This document shows, one piece after another, positions 546 to 16,890 of a DNA stretch of 60,249 nt (the first letter of the stretch is position 1; each line of letters opens with the position of its first letter). The position numbers and the translations under genes are program-made. The notes under the pieces are model-generated. The model was not told the DNA's origin and did no database searches. It was given only the letters and a program-made list of their open reading frames with translations. Origin of the DNA: Gemmatimonadota bacterium (GTDB lineage Bacteria; JAAXHH01); NCBI GenBank assembly GCA_026706345.1, contig JAPOYX010000011.1, positions 405 to 60,653 of the forward strand, read 5' to 3'.

Positions 546-1658
546 TCAGGCTCTTTTCCCCGGGGACAGGCCCAGGCCTTCCCATACTCTTCCCAGGCCT
601 TCCCATACCCGGTCGAACCTCAGCGACGCTTCCGTTTCGCCCCGGCAACTGTACCAGCACCGGTTGCAGTCGATCTTGCGGGAAACCGGTTTGTAGTCGG
701 CGTATCCGGACTGTACGGGCAGTTCCGCGCAGGGCTTTACGTCGCCGTCGGGGGTCAGCTGCACCAGCCACTTGCCCGCCGCCGTGCAGGTCCGTGGGAG
801 GGAATTCTGGAAATAGGCGGGGATGCGGCGCAGGTACCAGTCGGAATTGACGATGTTGCCCAGACGGGACTTCTGGTAGATCAGATCCTCGATCACGGAT
901 TCCAGCCGTTCGGCGTGACCGGTATCCACCAGGTGGGTTTCGTTCCCGTTCTTGAAGTCGCTGTAGCAGCTGTAGGAGACCTTAGCGCCCATGGTTCGCG
1001 CCAGATGCGCTATGGGGACGACGTGGTCCAGGTTGTCGCGCATGATTACGGTGTTGAAGATCACGTTGATTCCCCGGGCCGTCAACTGGGGCACGAGCGT
1101 GGAGATATGCTCGTACAGGCCCGCGATCCCCCGTTCCTCGTCATGTTCGCGGCCGATGTAGTTCAACGAAATCGAGATGTGGTCCATGCCGGCTTCCCAC
1201 AGCGCCATGGCTTTTTCCACGGTCAGGAGAGATCCGTGGGTGACCATGCCGATATAGATGAAACCCAGGGACTCCTTGATGCGCCTGACCGCCTCGGGCA
1301 ACTGCTTGTTGATCGTCGGTTCCCCGCCAGTCAGCGTGACCGTCAAGGGGTTCAACTTCCTGAGCGCGTCCACGTAATCGTAGTCGCCCAGCTTGCCCGA
1401 ACGCTTCGTTTTCCAGTAGTCACAGAAATCGCAGGTGGCGTTGCAGAGGTACGTCACCTCCATGTTCACCGCCATCGGTCCGCCCTTCAGCCGCACCCAG
1501 AGGTACTTGAGCACGGAACGAAGCTTCCTGACGGGGGACATGGGACGCAACAAGGCCCGGTCGTACCCGAGATAGCCGGCATCCGGCTGCAATACGGGCG
1601 GCGCGGGAGGCGGCGGATAGCTTTCCACCGTCGGAGCGACCTGGATCTGTTCGGACAT
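546..1658 (-). CDS. radical SAM protein with SPASM-like C-terminal cysteines
   Basis: 370 residues. The radical SAM cluster motif CxxxCxxC is present as C72-NAT-C76-DF-C79, followed by TLTGGEPT, the usual GGE motif for S-adenosylmethionine binding. The C-terminus has several further cysteines (CTAAGKW, KPCAE, DCNRCWYSC) as in SPASM/Twitch proteins that carry auxiliary Fe-S clusters. These enzymes modify peptides, sugars or lipids by radical chemistry; the substrate cannot be read from the sequence. A proline-rich N-terminal segment (about residues 15-25) precedes the core. The start is supported by AAGGAG 9 bases upstream. It is the last gene of the envelope/CDP-alcohol run, 63 bp after the phosphatase. 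The C-terminus carries an in-frame 7-residue duplication (RVWEGLG twice). Confidence 0.85.
   Translation of the reverse strand: MSEQIQVAPTVESYPPPPAPPVLQPDAGYLGYDRALLRPMSPVRKLRSVLKYLWVRLKGGPMAVNMEVTYLCNATCDFCDYWKTKRSGKLGDYDYVDALRKLNPLTVTLTGGEPTINKQLPEAVRRIKESLGFIYIGMVTHGSLLTVEKAMALWEAGMDHISISLNYIGREHDEERGIAGLYEHISTLVPQLTARGINVIFNTVIMRDNLDHVVPIAHLARTMGAKVSYSCYSDFKNGNETHLVDTGHAERLESVIEDLIYQKSRLGNIVNSDWYLRRIPAYFQNSLPRTCTAAGKWLVQLTPDGDVKPCAELPVQSGYADYKPVSRKIDCNRCWYSCRGETEASLRFDRVWEGLGRVWEGLGLSPGKRA
571..607. repeat. 21-bp in-frame tandem duplication at the 3' end of the radical SAM gene
   Basis: The 16-mer cccaggccttcccata occurs at 571-586 and again at 592-607, an offset of 21 bp. Because 21 is a multiple of 3 the frame is preserved and the protein gains a second RVWEGLG. 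Confidence 0.9.
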
Positions 1659-1684
1659 GGACTGCTACTCCTTCATCGCCGCAT

Positions 1685-1740
1685 TCAGGCGGCGGCGACG
1701 AAACAGGTGCTATGCCGTACCTCAGGCGGCGGCGACGAAA
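1685..1740. repeat. 19-bp direct repeat spanning the phosphatase stop codon
   Basis: tcaggcggcggcgacgaaa occurs at 1685-1703 and 1722-1740 (offset 37 bp). The second copy encodes the last residues FVAAA and the stop of the phosphatase. The first is a non-coding echo of the same 3' end lying between the phosphatase and the radical SAM gene. Confidence 0.9.
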
Positions 1741-3172
1741 TCGGTACCGTCTATCTCGCCTTCGACCGAATGCCCCGTGAGACTCAACATGGAGGGAAAC
1801 AGGTCCACGGTGCGTACGTAGTCTGCCGAAATCTGCGCATTCATGAACAACGGGACGTGCATGTGTTCGCGATGGAGCGAACCATGGGACGCCCTGTGTT
1901 CGGGATGCTCGTGCCGGATCCTCAGATCGTATCCCTTTCGGGCGCTGACGATCACGTCACCCGACCGGGCCGACCCAATGACCTTCAGGAGTTGGTATGG
2001 CGCGTCCGGATAGTCCGTGTCGAACGTGGCGGAAAGCGCCTCTTCCTGGGACATCTCTACCGGCATGTCGTCGTAGCCGAAGGGATCCTCACCCTCGCGC
2101 ACCCGGTAGGACAGGCCGTTCCGCGTCTCCCGGATCTCGGCCATTCCCCGGCGTCCCCATACGACAACCCCCTGGTCGTGGGTTCTGACCGCCAGTCGTG
2201 GGTTCTGACCGCCACCAGGTCGATCGCTTCCTGTGAGAGCAGGGCTTCGACCAGGTCCGTATCCCCCATGGAACGGATCTCGTCACAGGAAGGCCGCTCC
2301 GCCCACGTATCGCCCTTCTTGAGGTAGATATGGGCCATTCCATTGCCGGACACCATCGAGGCCGCGTTGCATCCTTTACGCAGGATCTTCGGATAATACA
2401 GCGTGTTGAACCCCAGTTCGTCCAGAAACGACCAGAGTTCGAAGTGCGTGTGGGTGGTGGTCAGGCCATGGTCGCTGGAGACCACGAACAGCGTGTCGTC
2501 CAGCCTGCCTTTACGGCTGAGCCGTTCCGCCAGTCTGCCGAGCCCCCGGTCGAACGCGCGGTACGCATCCAGGGTCTCGTCCGAAAAAGGATCGGTGTAA
2601 TGCGAATACTCGTCCACCGCGGGGAACACGACCGACAGGAAATCCGCCTCCCGGTCGATCGCACGGTCCACGTAACGCCACGCCGCGTCGTCCACGGCCT
2701 GCCAGCGGCCGGAGTAATGGGCATAGAGCCAGTACCAGTTCTTGACCAGCAGCGTCTGGTTCGCGAAAACATCCAGGCCTCGGTTCAGAAAACTGAAGAC
2801 TCCGGCGGGCTGTTCGAAGTATTCGAATATGGTGCGGATATCCTCCCTGAGGTCCCTGTCCATATACAACCCGCCCGGGCCCACGTAACTGCGCGACTGG
2901 TTGAAATGGGTGAACCCATGGGACCTGGACCGGTCAAACCAGCGAATGCCGGGAAGATTGGATGAACCGGGCGTACAACCCGTAAGAAAGGGGACATGGG
3001 CCGGGCCGGTCGTGGACGGGAAGGAAGTCACCGTCTTCCGGTAGTCTCCCCGGTCGAGCACGAATCGCCGCAGGTTCGGAAACTCGCCCGCCTCGATGAA
3101 ATCTTCCATCACATCCGCGCGGGCGCCGTCGACCAGGAAGAAGACACACCGCTTGAACGGCGTTCTCGCCAT
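1722..3172 (-). pseudogene. AlkP-superfamily phosphatase/phosphodiesterase, frameshifted by a 20-bp duplication
   Basis: Start ATG at 3172 (MARTPFKRC), with AGGAG six bases upstream. The N-terminus shows the type I phosphodiesterase/nucleotide pyrophosphatase signature: metal-binding Asp in LVDGARAD (about residue 15), the nucleophile region SFPSTTGPAH (T54/T55) and later SSDHG. The reading frame runs into a different frame near 2195 and continues out of register to 2057. The true C-terminus (MAEIRETRNGLSYRV to the stop at 1722, including VRTVDLFPSMLSLTG) is in another frame. Deleting one copy of the 20-bp tandem repeat at 2175-2214 restores a continuous frame (VAVRTHDQGVVVWGRRGMAEI). The intact protein would be about 476 residues. 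It may be a real inactivation, a phase-variable state or an assembly error. It sits within the envelope cluster, and a candidate BlaI operator overlaps its ribosome site. Confidence 0.85.
2175..2214. repeat. perfect 20-bp tandem duplication causing a frameshift
   Basis: gtcgtgggttctgaccgcca is present twice head to tail (2175-2194, 2195-2214). Twenty is not a multiple of three, so the extra copy breaks the phosphatase frame; removing one copy joins both halves perfectly. Confidence 0.95.
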
Positions 3173-3179
3173 GCTGTCT

Positions 3180-3193
3180 CCTAAAAACTTAGG
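3180..3193. promoter_or_regulatory. candidate BlaI-type operator in front of the phosphatase gene
   Basis: CCTAA-AAAC-TTAGG is a perfect 5-bp inverted repeat. Read on the minus strand its core is CTAAGTTTTTAG, exactly the 12 bases found upstream of blaI at 13936-13947. It abuts and overlaps the AGGAG ribosome site of the phosphatase (start 3172), where a bound repressor would block transcription. Function is inferred. Confidence 0.55.
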
Positions 3194-3254
3194 ACATGGT
3201 CTTATGAAAAACGATCGAATCCTGCTATACAGGCTGCAGAATATACATGGTTTC

Positions 3255-3854
3255 TCATTCAGTTTCAAGGGTTTTCGCACGGAGGGTGCTGAGGAGTTCC
3301 TCGTAAGAGGACTGCCTGATCTTCTTGTAAAAGGCGTCCCGGTTGGCCAGCGCCACGCTCGCCCCGTCTATCACCATGTCATAGATGAGCCACTCTCCCT
3401 GCTTAAGCTCCATCTTGTAGTCGACGAGCGTTTTGGTGCCCTTGTACCATACCGTGGTTCTCACCAGCGACCGGCTGCCCCGCGTTTCCTCTCCGTCATA
3501 CGTCGTATTGTCCGATCGCTTGCGCAGCTTCTCGAGCGCCCTGTTCTCCGTCCATAGACGCAGGACCGAAACGAATTCTTCCCGCTCGGCCGCGGTCCGC
3601 TCCCGCCAGTACCTGCCGAGGGAAATCCGGCTGTGCCGTTCGAAATCGAAACCCGAGACGACGGACTGGCGCACCAGGCTGTCCCGGACGGCTTCGGTCG
3701 TCGACCCGTCCACGGCGCGTAACGCGGCATCCCGTCGCTTCAGTGTCTCGACAGGCGAGGATACCTGCGCGTAACTCCCGAAAGCCGGCAAAGACACCGC
3801 CGCCCAGGCGGCCAGGCAGGCTATCCGGCGAATCTCACGGCGTAGCAAGTGCAT
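3255..3854 (-). CDS. MlaC/HpnM-like periplasmic lipid-binding protein
   Basis: 199 residues with an N-terminal signal peptide (RREIRRIACLAAWAAVSLPAFGSYAQ). The mature part matches the MlaC/Ttg2D (toluene tolerance) family: a helical N-terminus, then VSGFDFERHSRISLGRYWRE, an 'LR.W..NRALEKLRKR' helix, and the strand run RTTVWYKGTKTLVDYKMELKQGEWLIYDMVIDG. The family carries phospholipids between membranes in the periplasm; a relative (HpnM) accompanies hopanoid genes. GGAGGG precedes the ATG. It lies 26 bp from the DUF3047 gene upstream and 82 bp before the phosphatase, the interval that contains the candidate operator. No MlaBDEF partners are in the window, so its cargo is unknown. Confidence 0.8.
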   Translation of the reverse strand: MHLLRREIRRIACLAAWAAVSLPAFGSYAQVSSPVETLKRRDAALRAVDGSTTEAVRDSLVRQSVVSGFDFERHSRISLGRYWRERTAAEREEFVSVLRLWTENRALEKLRKRSDNTTYDGEETRGSRSLVRTTVWYKGTKTLVDYKMELKQGEWLIYDMVIDGASVALANRDAFYKKIRQSSYEELLSTLRAKTLETE

Positions 3855-3880
3855 GTCTTCCCTCCATCCATCCGCCCGGG

Positions 3881-4720
3881 TCAGGACCCGCGGCGATGAA
3901 CCACGAAGTCGTCGTAATCCCCCTGCGAATCCGTCCCCGTCGCGTTGCCATCCGTCAGAATACCGATCCCCACGGCTTTACGGGGCGGTTTCTTCCCGAA
4001 GATCCGGACATAATCCGCATGCACGTCGACCGACTCCTCTACCCAGCGGCCGAGCTTCTCCTCCCCGCTTTCGAGCACGATCACGTGGGGACGGCCGATG
4101 CCGTCGCGCCGGTGGTACGTGCCCACCGGCAGTGTGGTGCTCCAGACGTACTTCAGGGTCTTGGGCACGCCGACGAAATTCTGGTCCAGGACCACGTATA
4201 CGGCAACCGCGCTGTCGTTCCTGGAACCGATACGTTCATCCCCGCCTTCGGGCAGGACCTGCGCCCTCCAGCGCCAGGAAAGCACCGGATATTCGTTTGC
4301 GTCCCACTCTCTCAGTTGCTTGCGAATGATGATGGAGGAACCGTCGTCGGCTGCGTGGAGATACCGGTTGCCGTTTTCTTCCTGGACCGTGTACGTGTTG
4401 CGGGCCAGTCCATCGTCTCCCCGCCAGGCCTTCCAGGTCAGGGGGAAGCCGCCCGTGTCCGAACCACCGAAGTCTTCGATGATGATAGACTGTTGAAGAT
4501 CATCACGGCGCTGGGGATGGTCCGCAGGGGCCGCCCGGGCGACGGCCGGAGTGAACGGATCAGTCCCGGTCCGGGGCCACGTAGAGACGGGTGCCGGCCT
4601 CATGTCCTCCGGAATGGGACGCAGGACGGAAGACGGATCGATGACCGCGGCGCAGCATAGAAGAACGCCTCCGGCCAGCCAACTAAGCGTCCTGCCCGCC
4701 CCCTTGCGTCGTTTTTTCAT
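3881..4720 (-). CDS. DUF3047 family exported protein
   Basis: 279 residues. A basic start (MKKRRKGAGRTLSW) leads into a hydrophobic segment (LAGGVLLCCAAV), a signal peptide or anchor. The body carries the DUF3047 pattern: an early IIIEDF strand, then VLSWRWR, a 'DSAVAVYVVLDQ' strand, KTLKYVWSTTLPVGT, and the ending VGIGILTDGNATG..DYDDFVVH. The fold is probably jelly-roll-like and the family has no defined biochemical function that I know of. The start is supported by GGAG. It sits between the TolC-like gene (21 bp) and the MlaC-like gene (26 bp), so a cell-envelope role is inferred from context. Confidence 0.8.
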   Translation of the reverse strand: MKKRRKGAGRTLSWLAGGVLLCCAAVIDPSSVLRPIPEDMRPAPVSTWPRTGTDPFTPAVARAAPADHPQRRDDLQQSIIIEDFGGSDTGGFPLTWKAWRGDDGLARNTYTVQEENGNRYLHAADDGSSIIIRKQLREWDANEYPVLSWRWRAQVLPEGGDERIGSRNDSAVAVYVVLDQNFVGVPKTLKYVWSTTLPVGTYHRRDGIGRPHVIVLESGEEKLGRWVEESVDVHADYVRIFGKKPPRKAVGIGILTDGNATGTDSQGDYDDFVVHRRGS

Positions 4721-4741
4721 GATCCTGCTCCGTTTCTTCCG

Positions 4742-6127
4742 CTAGCGCTGCGTATTTGAAACTCCGTTACCCGTTACGTGGTCGAGTTCAGCCAGCGAGA
4801 CCCGGTATTCAAACAGGGACTGCCGGTACGCATGCTGCATTTTAGCGTGCGCGGTATAGGCGTCCAGCAATTCCGAACTGTCCCCGGTCACGTCGAAACC
4901 CAGTGTCGCGGCCGTCAGCCAGGCCCTGGCGGAGCGGAGCGCCCGGTCGCTGTTGACTACGTTTGCCCGGGCCTCGATCACGTCCCTGTAGGTCTGTTCC
5001 ACCTGCAGTTCAATCGCGTTCAAGGCCTGCGATTCCCTGCTCGCCAGAGACTCCAACTCCGCCTTCCGGGCCAGGTACTTGGCGCGGGTCAGGCCGAAAT
5101 TGAAGTTCTGCCGCAACGTGATCACCGCGCCGCCGCGAATGAAATTGAACTCGTCCCTGAGAAACGGATTGTCGAGTTCCGGCCTGTGGGGCGCGATACC
5201 CCACTGGAGCGACCCCGCCAGGGCGATCTGGGGGTAGAAGTCGCTCTTGGCCACCTTCAGCAGCGCCCGGCGCGCCAGCACCCCCGCCCTGAGCTGCCGG
5301 ATGTCGTGCCGCCGGCTCTTCGCCTGTTCGATGTAAACGTGCAGTCCCTCGAGCTTTGCCGGATCGGTCCCGGCGGCCACGTAGACGATATCGAAATCGC
5401 TGGAGCGATCGATTCCGAGGAGGGCCATCAGCGCCGCCTTCCCCATTTCGATCGACTTCTCGGCACGCGCACGGCTCTGTTGCACTTCGAATTCGAAGAC
5501 GTCGATTTTCAGGAGGTCGTTCTGGCCTACATCTTCTGAATCCTCCTCGATCATCTCGTTTACGCGCTGTCTGGCTTCCCGCACTTTCTCTTCGCTTTCC
5601 AGGATGATCTCTCTGAGCTCCCTGGCCAGCACCAGACCGTAGAACAGCTTCTTAACCTGTAGCACCACGTCGCTTTTCTTCGATTCCAAGGCCGCCTCGC
5701 CCGCTTCGAGACCGAAACCGGCCGCCTTCTTCGCATTGCCGAGTTTTCCGAAGGTATACAGCGGCTGGACCAGTTCGATGTGTGTACGGGAGAAAACGCC
5801 CAGATCGGAGAGATCGCTCCGGATAGTCTCGATCTGTTCCGTATCGCCTTTTATTCCAGGCGCCGGTCCGAATATGTTGGTCCACTGCAACTGAGGCATT
5901 ATACCGGCGAATCTCGCCTCGCTCAGCCTGGCTTCCAGGCCCTCTACGGCAAGGACAGCCTGTTCGATATCCGGACTGACCATCAACGCGCGGTCCACGC
6001 ACTGTTCCAGCGTCATCCGGACCGCCTGGACGGTCCGGGGCGGTCCCTGCGCGATGACAGGCCCTGTAATCAGCAATGTCGCCAGCAGGTGGGTCAGCAG
6101 ACGAAACACGATGCCTCCGCTTGGCAT
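4742..6127 (-). CDS. TolC-family outer-membrane efflux channel
   Basis: 461 residues from the ATG at 6127. An alternative GTG at 6109 (VFRLLTHLLATLLITG) has a GGAGG just before it and makes a cleaner signal peptide. The protein has the two-repeat TolC layout: helical hairpins (LEQCVDRALMVSPDIEQAV near the start; LQVKKLFYGLVLARELREII; second repeat with YRDVIEARANVVNSDRALRSARAWL) with strand segments such as ALAGSLQWGIAP and ITLRQNFNFGL between them. TolC trimers form the exit duct for type I or RND-type exporters; no periplasmic adaptor or pump is encoded nearby. Its place among lipid-headgroup genes suggests export of that product. The 143-bp gap upstream contains a 17-bp direct repeat. Confidence 0.88.
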   Translation of the reverse strand: MPSGGIVFRLLTHLLATLLITGPVIAQGPPRTVQAVRMTLEQCVDRALMVSPDIEQAVLAVEGLEARLSEARFAGIMPQLQWTNIFGPAPGIKGDTEQIETIRSDLSDLGVFSRTHIELVQPLYTFGKLGNAKKAAGFGLEAGEAALESKKSDVVLQVKKLFYGLVLARELREIILESEEKVREARQRVNEMIEEDSEDVGQNDLLKIDVFEFEVQQSRARAEKSIEMGKAALMALLGIDRSSDFDIVYVAAGTDPAKLEGLHVYIEQAKSRRHDIRQLRAGVLARRALLKVAKSDFYPQIALAGSLQWGIAPHRPELDNPFLRDEFNFIRGGAVITLRQNFNFGLTRAKYLARKAELESLASRESQALNAIELQVEQTYRDVIEARANVVNSDRALRSARAWLTAATLGFDVTGDSSELLDAYTAHAKMQHAYRQSLFEYRVSLAELDHVTGNGVSNTQR

Positions 6128-6170
6128 AGTCGTCGAATTTCTTCCTGACTTAAGTATATTAGACGCCGCT

Positions 6171-6219
6171 GTTCTCCAGTTGATCCAATAATTAATGCCG
6201 CCGTTCTCCAGTTGATCCA
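6171..6219. repeat. 17-bp direct repeat in the gap between two envelope genes
   Basis: gttctccagttgatcca occurs at 6171-6187 and 6203-6219 (offset 32 bp), with similar flanks (gccgct/gccgcc upstream). It is non-coding, upstream of the TolC-like gene. Confidence 0.85.
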
Positions 6220-6270
6220 GGTAATTCCCGCTGACTAAGCCCGCGGAGATCGAGATCGGCAGCCGACAGC

Positions 6271-7557
6271 CTAAACAGACCGGTTCTCCTCGTCAGCTGC
6301 CGCGGGCTTCGACATCAGCCAGATCGCCCGCGTCCAGTGAAATGCCGCCGTGATCACCGTCCAGATGGCCACGAAGGTAAACGCCTCCTCCAGCATGCCG
6401 GCCGCCGTACCTCCCAGCAGCAGGAGGACGTTGGTGTTTCGCCGGGCGCCGATGCGACGAAAGAAGCGGTCCACGGGTTCGCAGTCGAACAGCTCGATAC
6501 CCTGCCTGGACTTGAACATCCCCGTCGCGGTCTTGTCAAGCAGATAAAACAGGGTGATCACGGTACTCAGCACGAAAGGGCCGACCAGGGCTCCGCCGCC
6601 GCTGAGCATCCACCCCAGAGCCCAGTACCAGGTCAGTTCCCAGACCACGTCCAGGATGTGTTCGTAGCGGTCCCCGAACCGGGTGCATCGCACCGTCACG
6701 CGGGCCAGCTTGCCGTCGACTCCGTCCAGTACGCCGACGATGAAGGCGATGACCAGTCCGGCGATCAGGTAACCCGACGCCAGTTGCCCCGCGGCCAGCA
6801 GACCGGTAGTCAGAAAGGCGAGCACGATGGTGAGAGTGGTTACCTGGTTGGGCGTGACGGGACCGGCCGAAACCCATTTCGTAAGCACGTTCTCCAGGGG
6901 CGGGTGGATGAATTCCGCGGGGAAGTCCAGCGTACCCTTCTGCGCGGCGTCGATCAACAGCATTTCCGCCTGTTGGACCTTCCGGTCCGAATCGAGGACC
7001 AGCCAAAAGGGGGGCAGGCTGCGGCGGAGATCCACGATATAGGGATCCATATCGCGGAGATCGTAGACAGAACAGGCCGACTCCGGCGCCGTGTCCAGCG
7101 CCGACCACAGCGATTCGGAGCCGGTCCATGATGCCGCGAGCTCCGTAAGCAGATCCGCGTCGGCCACCAGGAGCCTGCAGGATGCCCGGACCGCCTGATC
7201 GACGGCCCTTCTGTTCGAACCGCCGTCGATCAAGTCCCGCAATACGCGGGGATCGTACAGGTGATGGGCGTCCAGGACCAGGGCCGTTTCGTCCTTTCCA
7301 GGCAGCCAGCGGGCTGGGCTTTCGTCGGTCCGTACGCAGTCGACAGCGCCAAGCTCCCGGAACCAGCGCCCGTCAAACCCGTCGATCCGGACACTCGATC
7401 CCCGCCCGGGTGCGGGTCCGACCACCGAAACCCGCCGGGCTCCCAGGGAGGCAAAGACCCTAAGGTGCCGTTCGAGCAAGGGAATGCCGTAAACCGGCCG
7501 CGCGGCTCCGGCCGCGGTGGCGTCCGTATCGGCGAATAAGACCACGCTGAATTTCAA
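6271..7557 (-). CDS. CDP-alcohol phosphatidyltransferase fused to a degenerate nucleotidyltransferase-like domain
   Basis: 428 residues from a TTG start (weak SD, GAGAG). Residues 1-220 have the outline of a sugar-nucleotidyltransferase (VVLFADTD, GIPLLERHLRVFASLGARRVSVVG, LVLDAHHLYDP) but lack the GGxGxR loop and catalytic Lys. Residues 225-420 are a multi-pass CDP-alcohol phosphatidyltransferase with D278-xx-D281-G-xx-A-R286, then G295-xxx-E299-xxx-D303; the third motif Asp is Glu. The order matches the inositol-phosphate cytidylyltransferase/di-inositol-phosphate-phosphate synthase fusion, here with a decayed first half. The enzyme would transfer a phospho-alcohol from a CDP-alcohol at the inner membrane. 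It is 61 bp downstream of the flippase and pairs with the intact fusion at 9965-11413. Confidence 0.82.
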   Translation of the reverse strand: MKFSVVLFADTDATAAGAARPVYGIPLLERHLRVFASLGARRVSVVGPAPGRGSSVRIDGFDGRWFRELGAVDCVRTDESPARWLPGKDETALVLDAHHLYDPRVLRDLIDGGSNRRAVDQAVRASCRLLVADADLLTELAASWTGSESLWSALDTAPESACSVYDLRDMDPYIVDLRRSLPPFWLVLDSDRKVQQAEMLLIDAAQKGTLDFPAEFIHPPLENVLTKWVSAGPVTPNQVTTLTIVLAFLTTGLLAAGQLASGYLIAGLVIAFIVGVLDGVDGKLARVTVRCTRFGDRYEHILDVVWELTWYWALGWMLSGGGALVGPFVLSTVITLFYLLDKTATGMFKSRQGIELFDCEPVDRFFRRIGARRNTNVLLLLGGTAAGMLEEAFTFVAIWTVITAAFHWTRAIWLMSKPAAADEENRSV

Positions 7558-7618
7558 AACGATTCAGACTCTCTTTCGAGACTAACCCGCGGCACGCGCT
7601 CGTCCTCAGTTTCCCGGC

Positions 7619-9172
7619 TTATGCCGCCCTCTTCCTCAGAAAAGGCAGCGCGCCGCATTGCCCACGCAGGCGCCGGAGTACGGTCCGGTCATCCTCTTCC
7701 AGTCCCAGCAGGCTCAGAACGCCCAGGTAGACGGCCAGGAAGATCGAGGGCAACGCGGCCGTGCGCAGCCACGGAACATCGGGCACGTAGCTTCCCGCCA
7801 GTAACGCGCATCCGAAGGCGAGGACCGCGGCGGAGCAGGGCTTCAAAAGGCGCCAGGCCAGAGGATGGATCCGGAACAGGTAATATACTTCGAACAGGCG
7901 GATCAGCGTGAGCAGCATGAACGACGCCAGCGTTCCCAGGGCGGCGCCCAGGATGCCCAGACTCGGAATCAGCCACAGGTTCAGAACGAAATTCACGGCT
8001 ACGACCACGACCGTGTTGACGAGGTTGAGCCAGGGCCGGCCCGACATGATGAGCACGGTATCGCCCGAACCCATGGCGGCGTAGACGACCTGGCTCAGGG
8101 CCAGGACGACCATCGCCATGAACCCGGCGCCGAATTCGGGGCCGAACAGTCCAAGCAGTTCATTGCCGATCAACGACACGACGCAGAGGAAACCCACGCC
8201 GATGGTCAGCACCCACCGGGTGACCAGCCGCAGGTTGTGCTCCAGCCGCCGCAGGTCGTTCCGGTGGTTCAGTTCGGCGACGATGGGGCTGAAAATCGGG
8301 TCGAACCACTGGCGGACCTTCTTGGTCAGCAAGGCGATTTCGACTGCGATCACGTAAATGCCCACCTGCGCCGCCGGCAGAAAGTAGCCGACCATGAGCA
8401 CGTCGAGCCGGATCATGACCATGTAGACTAGCTCGTAGCCCATTACCGGCAGCGAGAAGCGGGTCAGCGGGGTGACGATACGCAGTTTGCGCAATTGGAC
8501 GAGGCATGCGCGCCAGGAATAGAACCTGGTGAACACGCGGACGGCGAACAGCAGGCCGCAGGCCAGCGCGGCCAGGTGGGCCGCGGCGATGCCATAGGTG
8601 CGCCAGCCCCAGTAGAACAATGCGCAGGCCGCCCCGAACAGCACCAGCGGCTCGACGACGCCCCGGACCATGGCATCGTATTTCATGACCTTGTGGGCCC
8701 GGGTAACGCCCAGGATGATGTGGGTCACGGCGATCAGCGGCAGGGCGACTGCAAGCAACCGCAGCATGCCGGTAAGCCGGGGTTTCTCAAGCAGGCCTTC
8801 CGCCAGCGCGGGCGCGCCAAGAAAGAGCGCGGCGCCGGTCACGGCACTCAGCAGCAACCCCACGCCCAAAGCCTGCGCGATGGTCCGATGGATGGCACCC
8901 GTATTTCCGTCCTCGCGCAGACGCGGGATGAAATTGACCAGCCCCTTGTCCAGCGAGAACTGACCGACCTTTGCCACGAGGTCCACGATGGTCCACCCGA
9001 GCATGTACAGGCCGAAGACCTCGGCCCCGAACAACCGCGTAAGGACGATGAACGAAACGGACTTTGTCAGTCGCGCCAGCGTTCCGATGAAATTGACGGC
9101 CGCGCCCCGGACGATGGTCAGTGCGTCGGATGCGGGCCGGACCGGAACCGGCTTCTCTCGGGTACGTGTCAT
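7619..9172 (-). CDS. polysaccharide/lipid flippase of the MOP superfamily
   Basis: 517 residues if started at the ATG at 9172, which overlaps the methyltransferase stop as ATGA. The frame is open further up to 9229 but that start would overlap 61 bp. The protein has about 12-14 hydrophobic helices typical of Wzx-like flippases, beginning with VRGAAVNFIGTLARLTKSVSFIVLTRLFGAEVFGLYML and including GYFLPAAQVGIYVIAVEIALL and MSGRPWLNLVNTVVVVAVNFVLNLWLIP. Such proteins move lipid-linked glycans or headgroups across the inner membrane. Lying between a methyltransferase and two CDP-alcohol transferases, it probably flips the product of those enzymes. I see no O-antigen polymerase or glycosyltransferases next to it. 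Confidence 0.87.
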   Translation of the reverse strand: MTRTREKPVPVRPASDALTIVRGAAVNFIGTLARLTKSVSFIVLTRLFGAEVFGLYMLGWTIVDLVAKVGQFSLDKGLVNFIPRLREDGNTGAIHRTIAQALGVGLLLSAVTGAALFLGAPALAEGLLEKPRLTGMLRLLAVALPLIAVTHIILGVTRAHKVMKYDAMVRGVVEPLVLFGAACALFYWGWRTYGIAAAHLAALACGLLFAVRVFTRFYSWRACLVQLRKLRIVTPLTRFSLPVMGYELVYMVMIRLDVLMVGYFLPAAQVGIYVIAVEIALLTKKVRQWFDPIFSPIVAELNHRNDLRRLEHNLRLVTRWVLTIGVGFLCVVSLIGNELLGLFGPEFGAGFMAMVVLALSQVVYAAMGSGDTVLIMSGRPWLNLVNTVVVVAVNFVLNLWLIPSLGILGAALGTLASFMLLTLIRLFEVYYLFRIHPLAWRLLKPCSAAVLAFGCALLAGSYVPDVPWLRTAALPSIFLAVYLGVLSLLGLEEDDRTVLRRLRGQCGALPFLRKRAA

Positions 9173-9951
9173 GACGGGGAACTCGCCGGTCGGGACGTCA
9201 TCCTGCTTGCTTCGATCAACAGGGTCCATCCCCGGTGGTTTCGGGTGAACAGGTTAAACGCGGCGGATACCATCCTGCCGATCGAGACCAGCCCCAGTCG
9301 GGTCACTGCCGCCGGTATCGCGTGCATGCGCTCCGTGGCATAACTCAGCCGGATCAGCGCCAGGTCCGGACTGGAACGAAGCAGGTATCGGTATCTTTCC
9401 AGTTTGAATCCACACGACTCGAGCAAAGACCCGACCTTCGGGTACGTGTAGAACTGCCGGACGGCGTGGAGTTCCCGGTGCTCGTCGCGCCACGCCTTGC
9501 CGATTCCCTCGAGGCTCAGGCTGTCCAGCGTCAACAGGATGCGTCCTCCGGGCCGCAGTACGCGCCACATCTCCAGCAGCGTTTGCCGGTCGTCGGGCAG
9601 ATGCTCGAAGACACACAGGCTGATGACCGTGTCGAACTGGCCCGAGCGGAGGGGGAACGCGCCGGCATCGGCGCAGAAGAAGCCCGTAGAGGGCGTCTTG
9701 TGACAGACCGCGGCACGGCGCAACTGGTCCCGGTTCAGATCGAAGCCGAAAATCCGGGCACCCCGCAAGGCGATCCGGTAATCATAGGTCCCCTCTCCGC
9801 AGCCGATATCGAGGATGCGCTCGTCCCGGCCCGGCCTCAGCCAGCGCAACGCCGGGACCGTTTCCTGGACCCTGCGGAAATTGAAGTCCTTTCTGATCCG
9901 GAGGGAGAAAAAACCCCGAACCCGGTACATCAGCCCGCTCTGTCCGCTCAT
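9169..9951 (-). CDS. class I SAM-dependent methyltransferase
   Basis: 260 residues. The S-adenosylmethionine-binding glycine loop is ILDIGCGEGTYDY, followed by acidic FGFDLNRDQL, the DAGAFPLRSGQFDTVISLCVFEHL segment and WRVLRPGGRILLTL, the Methyltransf_11 pattern. The target is unknown; in this operon a methylated headgroup or lipid is likely. The start ATG at 9951 lies in a 17-bp duplication that also contains the stop codon of the upstream gene. The 3' end overlaps the flippase start (ATGA), so the genes are probably translationally coupled. Confidence 0.85.
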   Translation of the reverse strand: MSGQSGLMYRVRGFFSLRIRKDFNFRRVQETVPALRWLRPGRDERILDIGCGEGTYDYRIALRGARIFGFDLNRDQLRRAAVCHKTPSTGFFCADAGAFPLRSGQFDTVISLCVFEHLPDDRQTLLEMWRVLRPGGRILLTLDSLSLEGIGKAWRDEHRELHAVRQFYTYPKVGSLLESCGFKLERYRYLLRSSPDLALIRLSYATERMHAIPAAVTRLGLVSIGRMVSAAFNLFTRNHRGWTLLIEASRMTSRPASSPS

Positions 9952-9973
9952 GTGCTCTGTCCGCTCATGTGCT
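9938..9973. repeat. 17-bp-offset duplication of a stop/start junction
   Basis: ctctgtccgctcatgtgct occurs at 9938-9956 and 9955-9973. On the minus strand each copy carries ATGA. The upstream copy's TGA ends the nucleotidyltransferase fusion gene and the downstream copy's ATG starts the methyltransferase, so an ancestral ATGA overlap appears to have been split by duplication. Confidence 0.85.
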
Positions 9974-11413
9974 CACATCCATAACCGGCCGGTCCCGCGC
10001 CAGCAGCCGGCCCGTCGAAATGAATATGGCGAGGCCCATGACCAGGCCGCCGGCCGTAACGGTCCAGAACATCCAGTTCAGGAGTCCCAGCGCGGCGAAG
10101 CACAGCAACAGCATGGTAAAGAAGTCTCTCTTACTCATCATCCGGAACACGTTGAGCAGCCGGGCGGCCAGGGCGCGGCGCCGGCCGACGGCATGCCGCT
10201 CGAAGGCCCGGTTGAACCGTACGAGACTGCCGCTCCCGCCGGTCTGCAGCAGATAGTAGTACATCACGAGGATCGACGCGGCCACGACGGCGACGGACCC
10301 TATCCCCAGAGACCGGACCACGGTCTCATCGGAGTCGCCCGCGTAAGCCCAGACCACGGCGGAAAAGAACGCCAGGTAGGTCAGGTTGTCCGTGATCGTG
10401 TCGAGCCACGACCCGTATTTCGATTCGCGGAAGGTCAGGACGGCCACCTCCCCGTCGCATCCGTCGAGAATGGACGAAACCTGGAAAAGAAAGGCGCCCA
10501 GCAGCACCGTCCAGTAGGTGCCGTCCAGCACGAACCAGGCTCCGAGCAGGCCGGAAAGAAACGTGACCAGGGTGACCATGTTGGGGGTGACCGGCACCTT
10601 GACCAGCCATCGGCTGATGCGGGTCGAAACCGGCCTGTTGACATACCGGGCAACCCAGCCGTCGGTGGGCTTCACGAGACGCCTGATCAGGGCCTTTTCA
10701 CCGTGCGCCAGCATTTCGGGCGTATCGACGTCCTGCCAGAAACCCTCGCCGATGTCGAAGGCGCGCATCCTTCCTTCCCCGGCCAGCGCCCGGATGCCGT
10801 CGCTCAACGCGCACCCCCCGGGGCCGTCCACGGCTTCGAGGGCGTCGAACAGGGCCGGCGTACAATGGAACATGCCGGTGTCGACCGCGTTGTACTCCCG
10901 AAGTTCCTTGTCGATTCGGACCACCCTGTCTTCACGCACCTCCACCTTGGTGGCGTCGTCCAGGTCGTACACGGTTTCGATTTTCCGGTCGACGGCGAGC
11001 AGACACTCCCCTTCGGCGACCGGTTCTTCGAGCAGTCGCTCCAGCGTCCGTTGCTCGAACAGGTGATCCGCCATGAGCAGGACAAAGGGCTCGGCCAGGA
11101 GAGACCGGGCGGCCAGGACGGAAACACCGTTGGGCATGTGCCATCGTTCGTTGTGCACCCATTCGATCCGGCAGCCGTCCAGGCCGGAATCATGCGACAG
11201 AGTCTCGTGAAAGCGGTCCGCTTCGTACCCCGTTACGATGACGAAGCGCGTTATGCCGGCCCTGCCGGCCGTCAGTATGATACGCTTGATCAAAGGCACG
11301 CCGCAGAGCTTCAACAGCGGTTTGGGCACCGGACCGGTTACCGTTTGAAGGCGCGCGCCCGCGCCGCCGGCGATGATGAGCGCCGAAGTCGCGCTGCTCA
11401 TATGCTGATCCAT
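9965..11413 (-). CDS. bifunctional nucleotidyltransferase/CDP-alcohol phosphatidyltransferase (IPCT-DIPPS-like)
   Basis: 482 residues. Residues 11-235 are an intact sugar-phosphate nucleotidyltransferase (GGAGARLQ loop at 16-23, PVPKPLLKLCG with the substrate-contacting Lys, LLMAD metal Asp near 115, and a second Asp in FWQDVD). Residues 260-470 are a multi-pass CDP-alcohol phosphatidyltransferase with D317-xx-D320-G-xx-A-V325-x8-G334-xxx-D338-xxx-D342; the normally conserved Arg of the motif is Val325. The architecture is that of the inositol-1-phosphate cytidylyltransferase/di-myo-inositol-phosphate-phosphate synthase fusion, which activates a polyol phosphate with CTP and condenses it with an acceptor alcohol. 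The acceptor here is unknown. MSSATS at 11401 is an alternative start. It lies 65 bp after the M56 gene. Confidence 0.85.
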   Translation of the reverse strand: MDQHMSSATSALIIAGGAGARLQTVTGPVPKPLLKLCGVPLIKRIILTAGRAGITRFVIVTGYEADRFHETLSHDSGLDGCRIEWVHNERWHMPNGVSVLAARSLLAEPFVLLMADHLFEQRTLERLLEEPVAEGECLLAVDRKIETVYDLDDATKVEVREDRVVRIDKELREYNAVDTGMFHCTPALFDALEAVDGPGGCALSDGIRALAGEGRMRAFDIGEGFWQDVDTPEMLAHGEKALIRRLVKPTDGWVARYVNRPVSTRISRWLVKVPVTPNMVTLVTFLSGLLGAWFVLDGTYWTVLLGAFLFQVSSILDGCDGEVAVLTFRESKYGSWLDTITDNLTYLAFFSAVVWAYAGDSDETVVRSLGIGSVAVVAASILVMYYYLLQTGGSGSLVRFNRAFERHAVGRRRALAARLLNVFRMMSKRDFFTMLLLCFAALGLLNWMFWTVTAGGLVMGLAIFISTGRLLARDRPVMDVST

Positions 11414-11478: not shown

Positions 11479-13485
11479 CTAGAAGATTGCGGAAAAGCCC
11501 AAGGTCATCTCCGGGTAAAGAGGACGGGAGATGACATCCAGTTCCTTCCGGTAGGCCGCCTGTACCACCATGGCGACGTGCCGTTCCCAGAAGTAACGCA
11601 TCCCTACCCCGGCGTCGACCATGGCCATGTGGCGGTTTTGCGGTCTGATCTCCAGGCCGGTGCCGCAGCCGAAGAAGGGTGTGAAGGATCCGCCCGGGAC
11701 GGTAAGATTGTAGCGATAGAAAGCCCCGATTCGGGTAATCCGGTCGGCCTGCTCTTCTTCCTGGACTTCAAGCACGTCCCTGCGCAGGGACGTGCTGCCG
11801 AAACCGGCCAGTTTCCTGGCCCGAAGCAGATTGCCGGTGTATGAAACGCCGGGAGACCGCCCGGCATCGTCAAACGCCTCCGTATCATCCGGCCGGTGGA
11901 TGGAAAACACGCCGCCGAACTGGTGGGTGGGCGTAAGGAAGTAACCGGCGCTCAGGGAGACGGTGGCCGGATCGAACAAAGCGTTACCCGTCTGGCCCAC
12001 ACCCTGCACCTCGATACGTCCCTGCCTGAGCCTGTTCCCCGCGGACCGGGGTCGATCCGGCACGAGCGCGGCAACGGAAGGTCCGGGGGCGGCGGGGCTT
12101 ATACCCTGGTGTCCCACGGGCTCGAAAGCCCCGCTTGAGTAACCGGCGTTCGGTCTGATCATCATGGCAGCCGTGGACCTGCGCGGCGCGGGCCGGCCAT
12201 CGACCATGATCCTGGGAAAATCATTACGGGCGACCGAATCCGTCCTGCGCTCAACCAAGCCGGCCGGAGAATCCAATCCGCCGGATTCCACGGCGCCATG
12301 CTCCGGCCGGGACGGGACCGGCTCGATCCGGCGGGGTTCCGGCCCGGCGATGATACCGCCAGTCCGCGCGGCGGCAGGCATATCGACCGAGCCAGCCAGG
12401 CGGGCAGGGCCGACCAGGTCGACTGGACCGACTGCCTCGTGCGAGCCGTCCGGACCGATCGGGCTGACCGGGCTGACCAAGCCGCCCAGGCTGACCGGCG
12501 CATTCAAATCGGAATGGAACAGGGGCATAACCGCGATCAGCGTACAGAAACCGACGGCCAGCAAGGAGAAGAGGGCACTTTGCTTCTGGCTCACCGCCGA
12601 ACCGAGCAGGTCCCGGATACGTATGGCTACCACGGAGGCCGACCTCGCCAGTTCGAGGACCGCCTGCCAGTGCGTCCGGACCTTGCCCCCGGCAACCTTC
12701 AGCAGGGTGGAAGCGTAGCGCTCCGGATGACTGGATACACGGACGACGGCTGCGTCGCAGGCCCGTTCCGCTTCGATATCGATTCGGCGTGTAGCGTACC
12801 AGACCGCCGGATGGAAGAAAAAGAAGATCCTGGCGAACTGTACCAGGACGACCGTCAGGTGGTCCCGCCGGGCGTAGTGCGCCAATTCATGAAGCAGGAC
12901 CTGTCTGAGTTCCGCGTCGGAAAGTTCCAGGATGCACCATGAGGGGATCACGACGACAGGCCGCCCCACGGCGATCAGCGCGGGTCCTTCAAACTCGTCC
13001 GAGACCCGCAAGGCCACCTTACGCTTCAATCCCAATTCGGCCAGGCAACTGTCGAACGACGCGCGTACCCGGAGGACGGTGACCGGAACGGCCCTGCGCT
13101 TTCTCCGCGTCAGCATGATGACCGCGGATACGACTCGGATCACTCCGAGACCGGCAATGGCGATCCAGGCCAGTCCCGTACCGGCATAGATATAGGTTTC
13201 CAGGAAGTAGCGACCGCCCGGGGCGGGTCCTGCGGCGTGTACCACGGGCGCCCACGGGATCTCGAACGGACCCGGCCAGGGCAGCACGACGGAGAATATC
13301 AGTTTAGCCAGTACCAGCAGCCAGAGGAAATGCCTGATCCTGGGCGGACAGCCCGGGTTCAATAAAAGCAACGCCCAGACCAGAACGCCCAGGATCAACG
13401 CTTCCAGGCTTGGCAGCCACAACAGGTCCACGACCCCGCGGCCCAACCGGTCGAAGAGCGTGATTGCGTAGCCCGGGTCAGTCAT
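11479..13485 (-). CDS. M56 (BlaR1-like) membrane metallopeptidase with a C-terminal beta-barrel-like extension
   Basis: 668 residues. The N-terminal 330 residues form the M56 core: membrane helices (ALILGVLVWALLLL, FLWLLVLAKLIFSVVL, AWIAIAGLGVIRVVSAVIM), then the zinc motif HELAH at 199-203 and another helix before residue 330. BlaR1/MecR1 proteases cleave a partner repressor after sensing a signal. A low-complexity Pro/Gly/Ser linker of about 160 residues follows. Residues about 495-668 look like an outer-membrane beta-barrel (alternating strands such as SLSAGYFLTPTHQFGGVFSI, GAFYRYNLTVPGG, TPFFGCGTGLEI, DAGVGMRYFWERHVAMVVQAAYR) ending in Phe. No penicillin-binding sensor domain is visible. 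The ATG overlaps the blaI stop by 8 bp. Confidence 0.85.
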   Translation of the reverse strand: MTDPGYAITLFDRLGRGVVDLLWLPSLEALILGVLVWALLLLNPGCPPRIRHFLWLLVLAKLIFSVVLPWPGPFEIPWAPVVHAAGPAPGGRYFLETYIYAGTGLAWIAIAGLGVIRVVSAVIMLTRRKRRAVPVTVLRVRASFDSCLAELGLKRKVALRVSDEFEGPALIAVGRPVVVIPSWCILELSDAELRQVLLHELAHYARRDHLTVVLVQFARIFFFFHPAVWYATRRIDIEAERACDAAVVRVSSHPERYASTLLKVAGGKVRTHWQAVLELARSASVVAIRIRDLLGSAVSQKQSALFSLLAVGFCTLIAVMPLFHSDLNAPVSLGGLVSPVSPIGPDGSHEAVGPVDLVGPARLAGSVDMPAAARTGGIIAGPEPRRIEPVPSRPEHGAVESGGLDSPAGLVERRTDSVARNDFPRIMVDGRPAPRRSTAAMMIRPNAGYSSGAFEPVGHQGISPAAPGPSVAALVPDRPRSAGNRLRQGRIEVQGVGQTGNALFDPATVSLSAGYFLTPTHQFGGVFSIHRPDDTEAFDDAGRSPGVSYTGNLLRARKLAGFGSTSLRRDVLEVQEEEQADRITRIGAFYRYNLTVPGGSFTPFFGCGTGLEIRPQNRHMAMVDAGVGMRYFWERHVAMVVQAAYRKELDVISRPLYPEMTLGFSAIF

Positions 13486-13873
13486 CCGATGCCTCCGAGG
13501 CCAACCGGTCCAGCAGATTGCGCAGGCTTTCGGCTTCTTCCGCGGTCAACGCGTCCGATTCGATCAGGTGCAGCACCAGGGACTGCGGCGATCCGGCGAA
13601 CAATTTGTCCACGACCGCCGTTATGACTTCCTGGCGCACGCCTTCCGGCTTCACGATGGCGGTGTATACGAAGGCCCGACCTTCGCGGCTATGCCGCACT
13701 ACGCCCTTCTGGGTGAGTATGGACAGGACCGTCTGAACGGTCGTGTACGCCAGGGGACGCTGGTCTCGAAGCGAATCGACGATCTGGCGCACCGTCGCCC
13801 GCCTCAGGCGCCAGACGACATTCATGATGTCGATTTCCAGGTCCGTCAGCGAAGACAGCTTCTTTCTGGCCAT
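13478..13873 (-). CDS. blaI: BlaI/MecI-family transcriptional repressor
   Basis: 131 residues from ATG 13873 (MARKKLSSLTDLEIDIMNVVW), which has AAGGGA upstream; an in-frame extension to 13933 is less likely. The winged-helix pattern of the family is clear: LTDLEIDIMNVVWRLRRATVRQIVDSL, then YTTVQTVLSILTQKGVVRHSREGRAFVYTAIV, and a helical dimerisation tail. BlaI proteins repress their own operon and targets until the BlaR1 protease cleaves them. The partner M56 gene overlaps directly. A dyad at 13935-13948, 62 bp upstream of the start, is the likely autoregulatory operator; the same core occurs before the phosphatase gene. Confidence 0.9.
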   Translation of the reverse strand: MARKKLSSLTDLEIDIMNVVWRLRRATVRQIVDSLRDQRPLAYTTVQTVLSILTQKGVVRHSREGRAFVYTAIVKPEGVRQEVITAVVDKLFAGSPQSLVLHLIESDALTAEEAESLRNLLDRLASEASDD

Positions 13874-13934
13874 CCGGTCCCTTGTCCAGTGCACCGCGTC
13901 CGCACGCCGAAGCCGTGGCCGGCGCGAACGCATG

Positions 13935-13948: not shown

Positions 13949-14074
13949 AGTTAAATATATGGCCCCATGTATCTTAATTAACGCGCTGGACGTGAATTGT
14001 CAATGCAAACGTTGTCCTCCCGGACGCCGGGAAAACCGACCGGTTCCGGACAAAATTCAGGTCTGATACCGGCC

Positions 14075-14815
14075 ATGATGGAAGACCCCGTCTACTTCAT
14101 TTCCGATGCCCACCTGGGGATCGAAGATTACGCGGCGGAGGAAGGTAGAAGAGCGCGCCTGCTGACCTTCCTGCGAAGCCTCCGGGGCAAGACCCGGCAA
14201 TTGTACATCGTGGGCGATCTGTTCGATTTCTGGTTCGAGTACCGCACTGTCGTGCCGCGCCAGCACTACACGGTGCTGCACGCGCTGAGTTCGCTGGTCG
14301 AGAGCGGGGTCCGGGTAATCTACCTTGCCGGCAATCACGATTTCTGGCTGGGTACGTTCCTGAACGAGCAGGTCGGTGTGGAAACGGCCGACGGACCGCT
14401 GACCGTCACTCACCACGGCCGGAAGATCTATATCGCCCACGGCCACGGGCTCATATCCAGGGACCTTGGATACCGCCTGCTTGCGAAGATCATGCACAGC
14501 GCTTTCAGCATCCGCCTGTTTCAGCTGATTCATCCGGACTGCGGTTTCAGGATCGGCCGCCTGGTATCGCGGTTGAGCAGGCGCCACGGCACACCCACGG
14601 CGTGGGACCCGCGGGAAGCCTACCGGGACCTGGCCTTCTCACTGCTCGACCAGGGCTACGACGCAGTGGTCTTCGGGCACAACCACTACCCGACGCTGCA
14701 GCATAAGGGGGACAAGGTGTATATCAACCTCGGGGACTGGCTCCGGCACGATACCTATGGCGTGTTGCGCGACGGGGAGATGACCCTGGAGAAGCACGGG
14801 GCCGCGGGGAGGTAG
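14075..14815 (+). CDS. lpxH: UDP-2,3-diacylglucosamine diphosphatase
   Basis: 246 residues from ATG 14075 (MMEDPVYF); ATG 14078 is equally possible. All calcineurin-type metal motifs of the family are present in order: SDAHLG, GDLFDFWFEY, GNHDFW, AHGHG and GHNHYP. LpxH hydrolyses UDP-2,3-diacylglucosamine to lipid X in the lipid A pathway at the cytoplasmic face of the inner membrane. Its presence shows a lipopolysaccharide-type outer membrane. It is divergent from blaI and stands alone, with a terminator hairpin about 100 bp downstream. Length is normal for the family. Confidence 0.88.
   Translation: MMEDPVYFISDAHLGIEDYAAEEGRRARLLTFLRSLRGKTRQLYIVGDLFDFWFEYRTVVPRQHYTVLHALSSLVESGVRVIYLAGNHDFWLGTFLNEQVGVETADGPLTVTHHGRKIYIAHGHGLISRDLGYRLLAKIMHSAFSIRLFQLIHPDCGFRIGRLVSRLSRRHGTPTAWDPREAYRDLAFSLLDQGYDAVVFGHNHYPTLQHKGDKVYINLGDWLRHDTYGVLRDGEMTLEKHGAAGR

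Positions 14816-14990: not shown

Positions 14991-16890
<1,900 letters not shown>

Follow-up and report, generated by a model that had tools for sequence, protein, structure and literature searches.

What does a bacterium make with two proteins of nucleotidyltransferase/CDP-alcohol phosphotransferase type that are encoded among envelope genes: a membrane lipid, a lipid-linked polymer or a soluble solute? This question is raised by a minus-strand gene cluster in a 60,249-nucleotide stretch of DNA (the window) from a Gemmatimonadota bacterium whose genome is a 4.49-Mb draft; our detailed analysis covered the first 16 kb of the window. An earlier note on this DNA had described nine consecutive genes, here named A to I, and gene calls together with domain searches recovered all nine in the same order on the minus strand. 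Since the upstream, co-directional genes BlaI and M56 (13933-11479) are conserved as unit members, the unit comprises eleven genes, BlaI–M56–A–B–C–D–E–F–G–H–I, and runs from 13933 to 546 (~13.4 kb; Table 1). We propose, with a probability of about 0.5, that this operon encodes a Kennedy-type route to a phospho-headgroup lipid together with the export of that lipid: A would provide CDP-inositol and D would join the headgroup to a lipid hydroxyl.

The membrane domain of D carries the motif DGVDGKLAR...GDRYEHILD, in which the CHPT1-type G2ExxD3HxxD4 motif is found as G295-D296-xx-E299-H300-xx-D303; its Glu is replaced by Asp, and D3 is a Glu. In the eukaryotic cholinephosphotransferase CHPT1, His133 and Glu129 of this motif are close to the phosphate, mutants of them have almost no activity, and the two residues were proposed to deprotonate diacylglycerol; the His/Glu pair is reported absent from most bacterial CDP-alcohol phosphotransferases (PMC10182977). 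A similar role of the His was proposed for CEPT1 (PMC10156783). An alignment of 50 D homologues has Asp or Glu at D3 throughout (50/50), followed by His in 43, Cys in 5 and Asp in 2. Four relatives have Gly at D4 with the His retained. The subgroup containing the window protein shares the CHPT1 spacing, and its residue at the Glu129 position is mostly Asp. This His was found in 0/22 A-family rows, in none of the other CDP-OH proteins of the same genome, and in 0/29 non-D proteins among the 30 best matches in 296 Bacteroidota genomes, the thirtieth being a known D. The homologues with Cys for His (L074, L084, L101, L102 and L104, from Desulfobacterales/deltaproteobacteria) are accompanied by a class III aminotransferase and a Gfo/Idh gene, and possibly use a different headgroup or acceptor.

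The predicted structure of D (predicted local distance difference test, pLDDT, 92.8) had its best fold matches in 4q7c and 4mnd, and both architecture and fold resemble AF2299. The N-terminal domain has neither a Pfam match nor a GxGxR motif, and is recognized as a degenerate nucleotidyltransferase from the predicted fold only. Because this first domain is degenerate, D is probably unable to make its own donor. The earlier description of two IPCT/DIPPS fusions thus held for A but not for D, whose domains are ordered as in AF2299 but whose first domain is degenerate and whose active site differs. In the tree, the D rows lie on one side of a branch (SH-aLRT 88) and the A rows group with 4mnd and AF2299; CHPT1 falls outside the D group on a long branch, and its placement is unsure. 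D scored 20.7 bits with the PIP synthase model NF045883 (cut-off 170).

The donor would probably come from A. The cytidylyltransferase site of A is intact (R21, K31, D116 and D230), and R21, K31 and D116 align with 4jd0 and 4mnd; the catalytic Arg, Lys and Asp of this motif were named critical in earlier work (PMC12275187). By profile, the nearest PDB relatives of A were the Archaeoglobus fulgidus (Af) IPCT-DIPPS 4mnd (1e-71), AF2299, Af IPCT 2xme and Tm IPCT 4jd0. The AlphaFold model of A (pLDDT 85) was nearest in fold to 4mnd (template modelling score 0.84 by target length, E 3e-25), followed by 4jd0 and 2xme. By both measures, the inositol-1-phosphate cytidylyltransferases 4jd0 and 2xme outranked other sugar-phosphate nucleotidyltransferases. 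From this we infer that the cytidylyltransferase domain of A makes CDP-inositol. The CDP-OH domain of A is altered: compared with DxxDGxxAR...GxxxDxxxD, four Asp and two Gly are kept but the full motif is lost through R325->V. At this position the genus has Val, and D-adjacent relatives that fuse an active-type cytidylyltransferase have Lys, Val or Ile; the A-type protein of L037, located beside MIPS (inositol-phosphate synthase) without D, keeps the Arg. Published work counts this Arg among eight absolutely conserved residues (PMC4634129), so that A may have an altered second activity or have lost it.

The same data bear on the possibility of a compatible solute, di-myo-inositol phosphate, that would be the product of A, with unrelated envelope genes as neighbours. 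The IPCT/DIPPS architecture is kept in A, which is closest to 4mnd, and DIPPS and AF2299 do not process lipids (PMC4634129). However, A reached only 245.7 bits with the curated Thermococcales DIPPS model NF041135 (cut-off 580), its CDP-OH motif is without the Arg that 4mnd and AF2299 keep, D with the lipid-acceptor motif is conserved beside it, and export genes are conserved with the A/D pair across phyla. We consider a soluble product very improbable. The preference for a membrane lipid or exported product over a soluble solute already expressed in the earlier note is in line with the [DE]H dyad of D and with the flippases, MMPL transporters and AONS/SPT-like genes near D homologues, all of which suggest that the cluster would synthesize and export a lipid.

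To describe these neighbours, one scan of genome contigs returned 80 loci, from KSB1, Calditrichota, Gemmatimonadetes, Proteobacteria, Desulfobacterales, Verrucomicrobia, Chloroflexi, and Asgard and other archaea. Neighbour counts, in which shared ancestry is ignored, cover 75 D loci: an A-type cytidylyltransferase was near D in 41 and an A-type second CDP-OH domain in 23, a flippase in 47 (MOP 29, UPF0104 18), MMPL in 18, TolC in 9, MlaC in 8, DUF3047 in 8, an AONS/SPT-like gene in 8 and MIPS in 10. Recurrent subsets of D, MOP, MMPL, MlaC, TolC and DUF3047 were seen in the KSB1, Calditrichota and Gemmatimonadetes loci. MOP and UPF0104 never occurred in one D locus (about 7 expected; p 3e-5; examples L052, L080 and L101), as if either could serve as the flippase, which hints at a flippase role of UPF0104 proteins for lipids of this kind. 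In a Chloroflexota genome (Anaerolineales; L072:1-2037), a single open reading frame of 678 residues joins an active-type cytidylyltransferase, a pseudo-cytidylyltransferase and a CDP-OH domain. MIPS, cytidylyltransferase and D occur together in L035, L078 and the Asgard loci L109, L110, L112 and L114. Kordiimonas marina (L094) has D, MMPL, cytidylyltransferase, MOP flippase and MIPS in one locus; being a named strain it is probably cultivated, and would be a practical organism for lipidomics.

The headgroup was approached through MIPS. Presence of MIPS alone was rejected as proof of inositol, because 44/99 background genomes have it and only the contrast with D genomes counts. MIPS was found in 46/50 D genomes versus 43/98 background genomes (other-family bacterial genomes drawn as relatives, with the D-bearing G042 left out; Fisher p 4e-9, or 4e-8 for bacteria only), although these counts ignore shared ancestry and most of the genomes are metagenome-assembled. 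This contrast, the adjacency of MIPS in L035, L037, L078 and the Asgard loci, and the inositol enzymes that head the structural and profile matches of A argue against the alternative that the same machinery handles another headgroup, with D as a CDP-alcohol:lipid transferase for, e.g., glycerate, glycerol, an amino-alcohol or a modified cyclitol. Substrates of COG1213-type cytidylyltransferases do vary, as the Tm IPCT-like CpgD of Caulobacter makes CDP-glycerate for a ceramide lipid (PMC12275187). Aminotransferase genes are present in many D loci of Desulfobacterales, deltaproteobacteria and Verrucomicrobia, with Gfo/Idh too in the first two, and MIPS lies outside the window operon. A headgroup other than inositol is possible on these grounds but unlikely.

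Whether the gene neighbourhood is conserved had been set beforehand as a test, and the homologues proved not to be scattered: the order is kept in relatives and across D loci. By tblastn, BlaI-M56-A-B-C-D-E-F-G-H-I stood in order on a single contig in nine genomes of the same genus (G001-G004, G006-G009 and G011), and in two more (G005 and G010) the order was cut or split by contig ends. In other genera or families, A, C, D and E are kept in G012, G013 and G015, with F, G, H and I as well where the contig extends far enough, as in G013. Between D and E, these three genomes encode an additional radical SAM protein and a large polytopic one; the latter resembles PMT/ArnT-type enzymes, without a Pfam match, and one sister-family locus adds an FkbM methyltransferase. 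In G014, A and C occur with a tandem GT4 glycosyltransferase and DUF3047, and an A homologue was present in all genomes compared from the phylum (16/16).

These insertions, together with the tandem GT4 protein of G014, would fit a lipid-linked polymer or glycolipid, for which D would attach a phospho-alcohol to a glycan or carrier lipid, for export by the flippase as part of a teichoic-acid-like or phospho-inositol glycan. C is indeed a polysaccharide-type MOP flippase, and polar alcohols are the substrates of AF2299-like enzymes (PMC4634129). However, the radical SAM/polytopic insert is not present in the window genus, no polymerase, Wza/Wzc-type export gene or glycosyltransferase was found in the unit of that genus, and the MlaC-like and MMPL neighbours point to single lipids. 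We regard such a polymer as quite unlikely.

The proposal of a Kennedy-type inositol lipid also has points that weigh against it, in addition to the neglect of ancestry in the MIPS counts. By both sequence and fold, D is nearer to AF2299/DIPPS than to CHPT1: its profile search matched CHPT1/CEPT1, but AF2299 and 4mnd ranked first. One residue fewer is found before D3 in 27/50 D homologues, and Cys or Asp replaces the His in 7/50. MIPS of the own genome is on another contig (L121) and not in the unit. The own genome also encodes a PIP-synthase-like CDP-OH protein (L004; 146 bits to archaetidylinositol-phosphate synthase, cut-off 180), which MIPS could serve, and plain phosphatidylinositol (PI) would not need the operon; the operon product is thus probably not ordinary PI, or belongs to a separate pool. 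Finally, the route gives no firm role to B, F, H or I.

The own genome has an MMPL protein unlinked to the unit (G000:C2:39176-41617). Elsewhere in this genome, at L122:5674-9071 (G000:C289), genes for a small CDP-OH protein and an epimerase come after a second MMPL-like one. Further pathway genes were sought at the own-genome MIPS, MMPL and C289 loci, and none was clear there.

Three other ideas about the product were tried and dropped. A hopanoid function, suggested by the HpnM-like G and the weakly HpnH-like I, was rejected: no squalene-hopene cyclase scored above cut-off in the genus, the cyclase family PF13243 had no match in the own genome, and G reached 50.4 bits with the HpnM model (cut-off 160). 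A lipid replacing absent lipopolysaccharide was weakened by the presence of LpxC in 14/16 genomes. A sphingolipid acceptor in the window genus found no SPT-like gene in the own genome; gammaproteobacterial D loci do have one.

For the Kennedy-type route we propose the following steps. Inositol-1-phosphate would come from the MIPS encoded elsewhere in the genome, and the intact cytidylyltransferase domain of A would convert it with CTP to CDP-inositol. With CDP-inositol as the donor, the membrane domain of D would place phospho-inositol on a membrane-lipid hydroxyl; the acceptor would be diacylglycerol or a different lipid alcohol, and a ceramide in those relatives that have an AONS/SPT-like gene. 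H300, paired with D296, is the predicted base activating this hydroxyl. The altered CDP-OH domain of A may add a second phospho-alcohol, and B may modify the lipid product. Flippase C would turn the lipid to the periplasmic face, from which the MlaC-like G, the TolC-like E, the DUF3047 protein F and probably the unlinked MMPL protein would transfer it towards or through the outer membrane. BlaI and M56 would regulate the unit.

Table 1. Genes and sequence features of the eleven-gene unit, in window positions.
Feature	Position	Strand	Basis or remark
BlaI-type repressor (Penicillinase_R)	13478..13933	minus	Pfam PF03965, 113 bits; first gene of the unit across the genus
M56 (BlaR1-like) membrane protease	11479..13485	minus	Pfam PF05569, 125 bits
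A, IPCT/DIPPS-like fusion (NTP-transferase/CDP-OH)	9965..11413	minus	Pfam, curated models, alignment, fold
A nucleotide-binding motif GGAGARLQTVTGPVPK	11321..11368	minus	aligned with Tm IPCT 4jd0 and Af IPCT-DIPPS 4mnd
A CDP-OH motif DGCDGEVAVLTFRESKYGSWLDTITD	10388..10465	minus	family alignment
B, SAM-dependent methyltransferase (Methyltransf_11)	9169..9951	minus	Pfam
C, MOP-superfamily flippase (Polysacc_synt)	7619..9229	minus	Pfam
D, predicted pseudo-cytidylyltransferase + CDP-alcohol phosphotransferase with lipid-acceptor type [DE]H motif	6271..7557	minus	Pfam, alignment, fold
D motif DGVDGKLARVTVRCTRFGDRYEHILD (D278...D296, E299, H300, D303)	6649..6726	minus	alignment; CHPT1 G2ExxD3HxxD4 equivalence per PMC10182977
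E, TolC-family outer membrane channel (OEP x2)	4742..6127	minus	Pfam
F, DUF3047 protein	3881..4720	minus	Pfam
G, MlaC/HpnM-like periplasmic lipid-binding protein	3255..3854	minus	PF05494, 101.6 bits (MlaC domain present)
H, AlkP-superfamily phosphodiesterase/phosphatase (Phosphodiest), frameshifted in the window genome	1722..3172	minus	Pfam, comparison with relatives
20-bp tandem duplication in H (copies 2175-2194 and 2195-2214)	2175..2214	minus	without counterpart in L021 and L023
I, radical SAM protein	546..1658	minus	Pfam, curated models

The unit is compact: gaps among the nine genes A to I are 13 to 143 bp, B and C overlap by 61 bp, and M56 is spaced 65 bp from A. The reading frame of H is split in the window genome by the 20-bp duplication; its relatives have an intact H, and since the genome is a draft assembly the duplication may be a mutation or an assembly error. 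The C-terminal domain of M56 (11482-12078, ~190 residues) is conserved, looks beta-barrel-like and ends in ...LGFS(A/T)IF. Pfam and PDB sequence searches with it gave no match, and it could be an outer-membrane-type sensor tied to the inner-membrane protease. Beyond I, the 3' flank in relatives is a convergent UvrA-like gene. At the 5' flank beyond BlaI lies a divergent calcineurin-like phosphoesterase (13997-14815) that resembles the lipid A enzyme LpxH; it is kept beside the cluster in the genus and also in L031 and L032. A collagen-like protein with Gly-X-Y repeats and a lipoprotein-like start (14991-16343; MHYLIV...) follows, and such a protein also adjoins the cluster in L044, L046 and L048.

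Several known systems are related to the unit. The closest parallel is the A. fulgidus pair of IPCT-DIPPS (4mnd) and AF2299 (4o6m), which like A and D consists of an active fusion plus a protein with a cytidylyltransferase-like domain. However, A is without the motif Arg, D has a [DE]H that is absent in both archaeal enzymes, and the archaeal enzymes act on soluble alcohols whereas D is predicted to use a lipid acceptor. With CHPT1/CEPT1 of the Kennedy pathway, D shares the G2[D/E]xx[D/E]HxxD motif, with a predicted soluble CDP-alcohol donor and lipid alcohol acceptor; it differs in its low similarity outside the motif region, its extra N-terminal pseudo-domain, a different headgroup, and best folds in AF2299/DIPPS. 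The MMPL (HpnN-like) protein and the MlaC/HpnM-like carrier of D loci are shared with the HpnN/HpnM system, in which HpnN has a role in hopanoid transport. The window genus departs from that system in the cyclase and HpnM scores given above.

A Kennedy-like route from CDP-inositol and diacylglycerol was put forward by Heaver et al. (2022, PMC9246714), without confirmation, for clusters of the Bacteroides vulgatus type. These share MIPS, a cytidylyltransferase and a CDP-alcohol transferase with our proposal, but the window unit is without a HAD hydrolase and without MIPS, and has fused and pseudo domains and export genes; the non-D CDP-OH matches in Bacteroidota, probably including the B. vulgatus type, are without the His. 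Caulobacter CpgA-D, for ceramide diphosphoglycerate, shares a COG1213 cytidylyltransferase that makes the CDP-headgroup donor of an anionic envelope lipid, with flippase and transport genes nearby, but differs in its glycerate headgroup, ceramide-1-phosphate route and Lpt-type transport paralogues. Searches of the open-licence literature for DUF3047 and for inositol lipids of Latescibacterota found no useful paper. Within that literature, the Kennedy-like idea itself is not new; what is new is a D family with the dyad and the pseudo-domain, the evidence from fusion and trans partners, and the coupling to an export operon.

We tentatively suggest, as a possibility somewhat against the odds, that D represents an undescribed and widespread prokaryotic family of Kennedy-type phospho-inositol:lipid transferases. 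Such enzymes would run the reverse of the bacterial PI route (CDP-diacylglycerol plus inositol phosphate), with a eukaryote-like His/acid dyad and a pseudo-cytidylyltransferase domain, would have their own outer-membrane export operon in Gram-negative phyla, and would occur also in Asgard archaea. H300/D296 is a residue-level prediction that one expression experiment could test. If the proposal is true, many uncultivated bacteria and Asgard archaea would have a CDP-headgroup route to inositol (or related) lipids, and envelope-lipid synthesis would form a module tied to a likely flippase and outer-membrane carriers. CHPT1/CEPT1 would then have, in D, a candidate prokaryotic counterpart of their active site.

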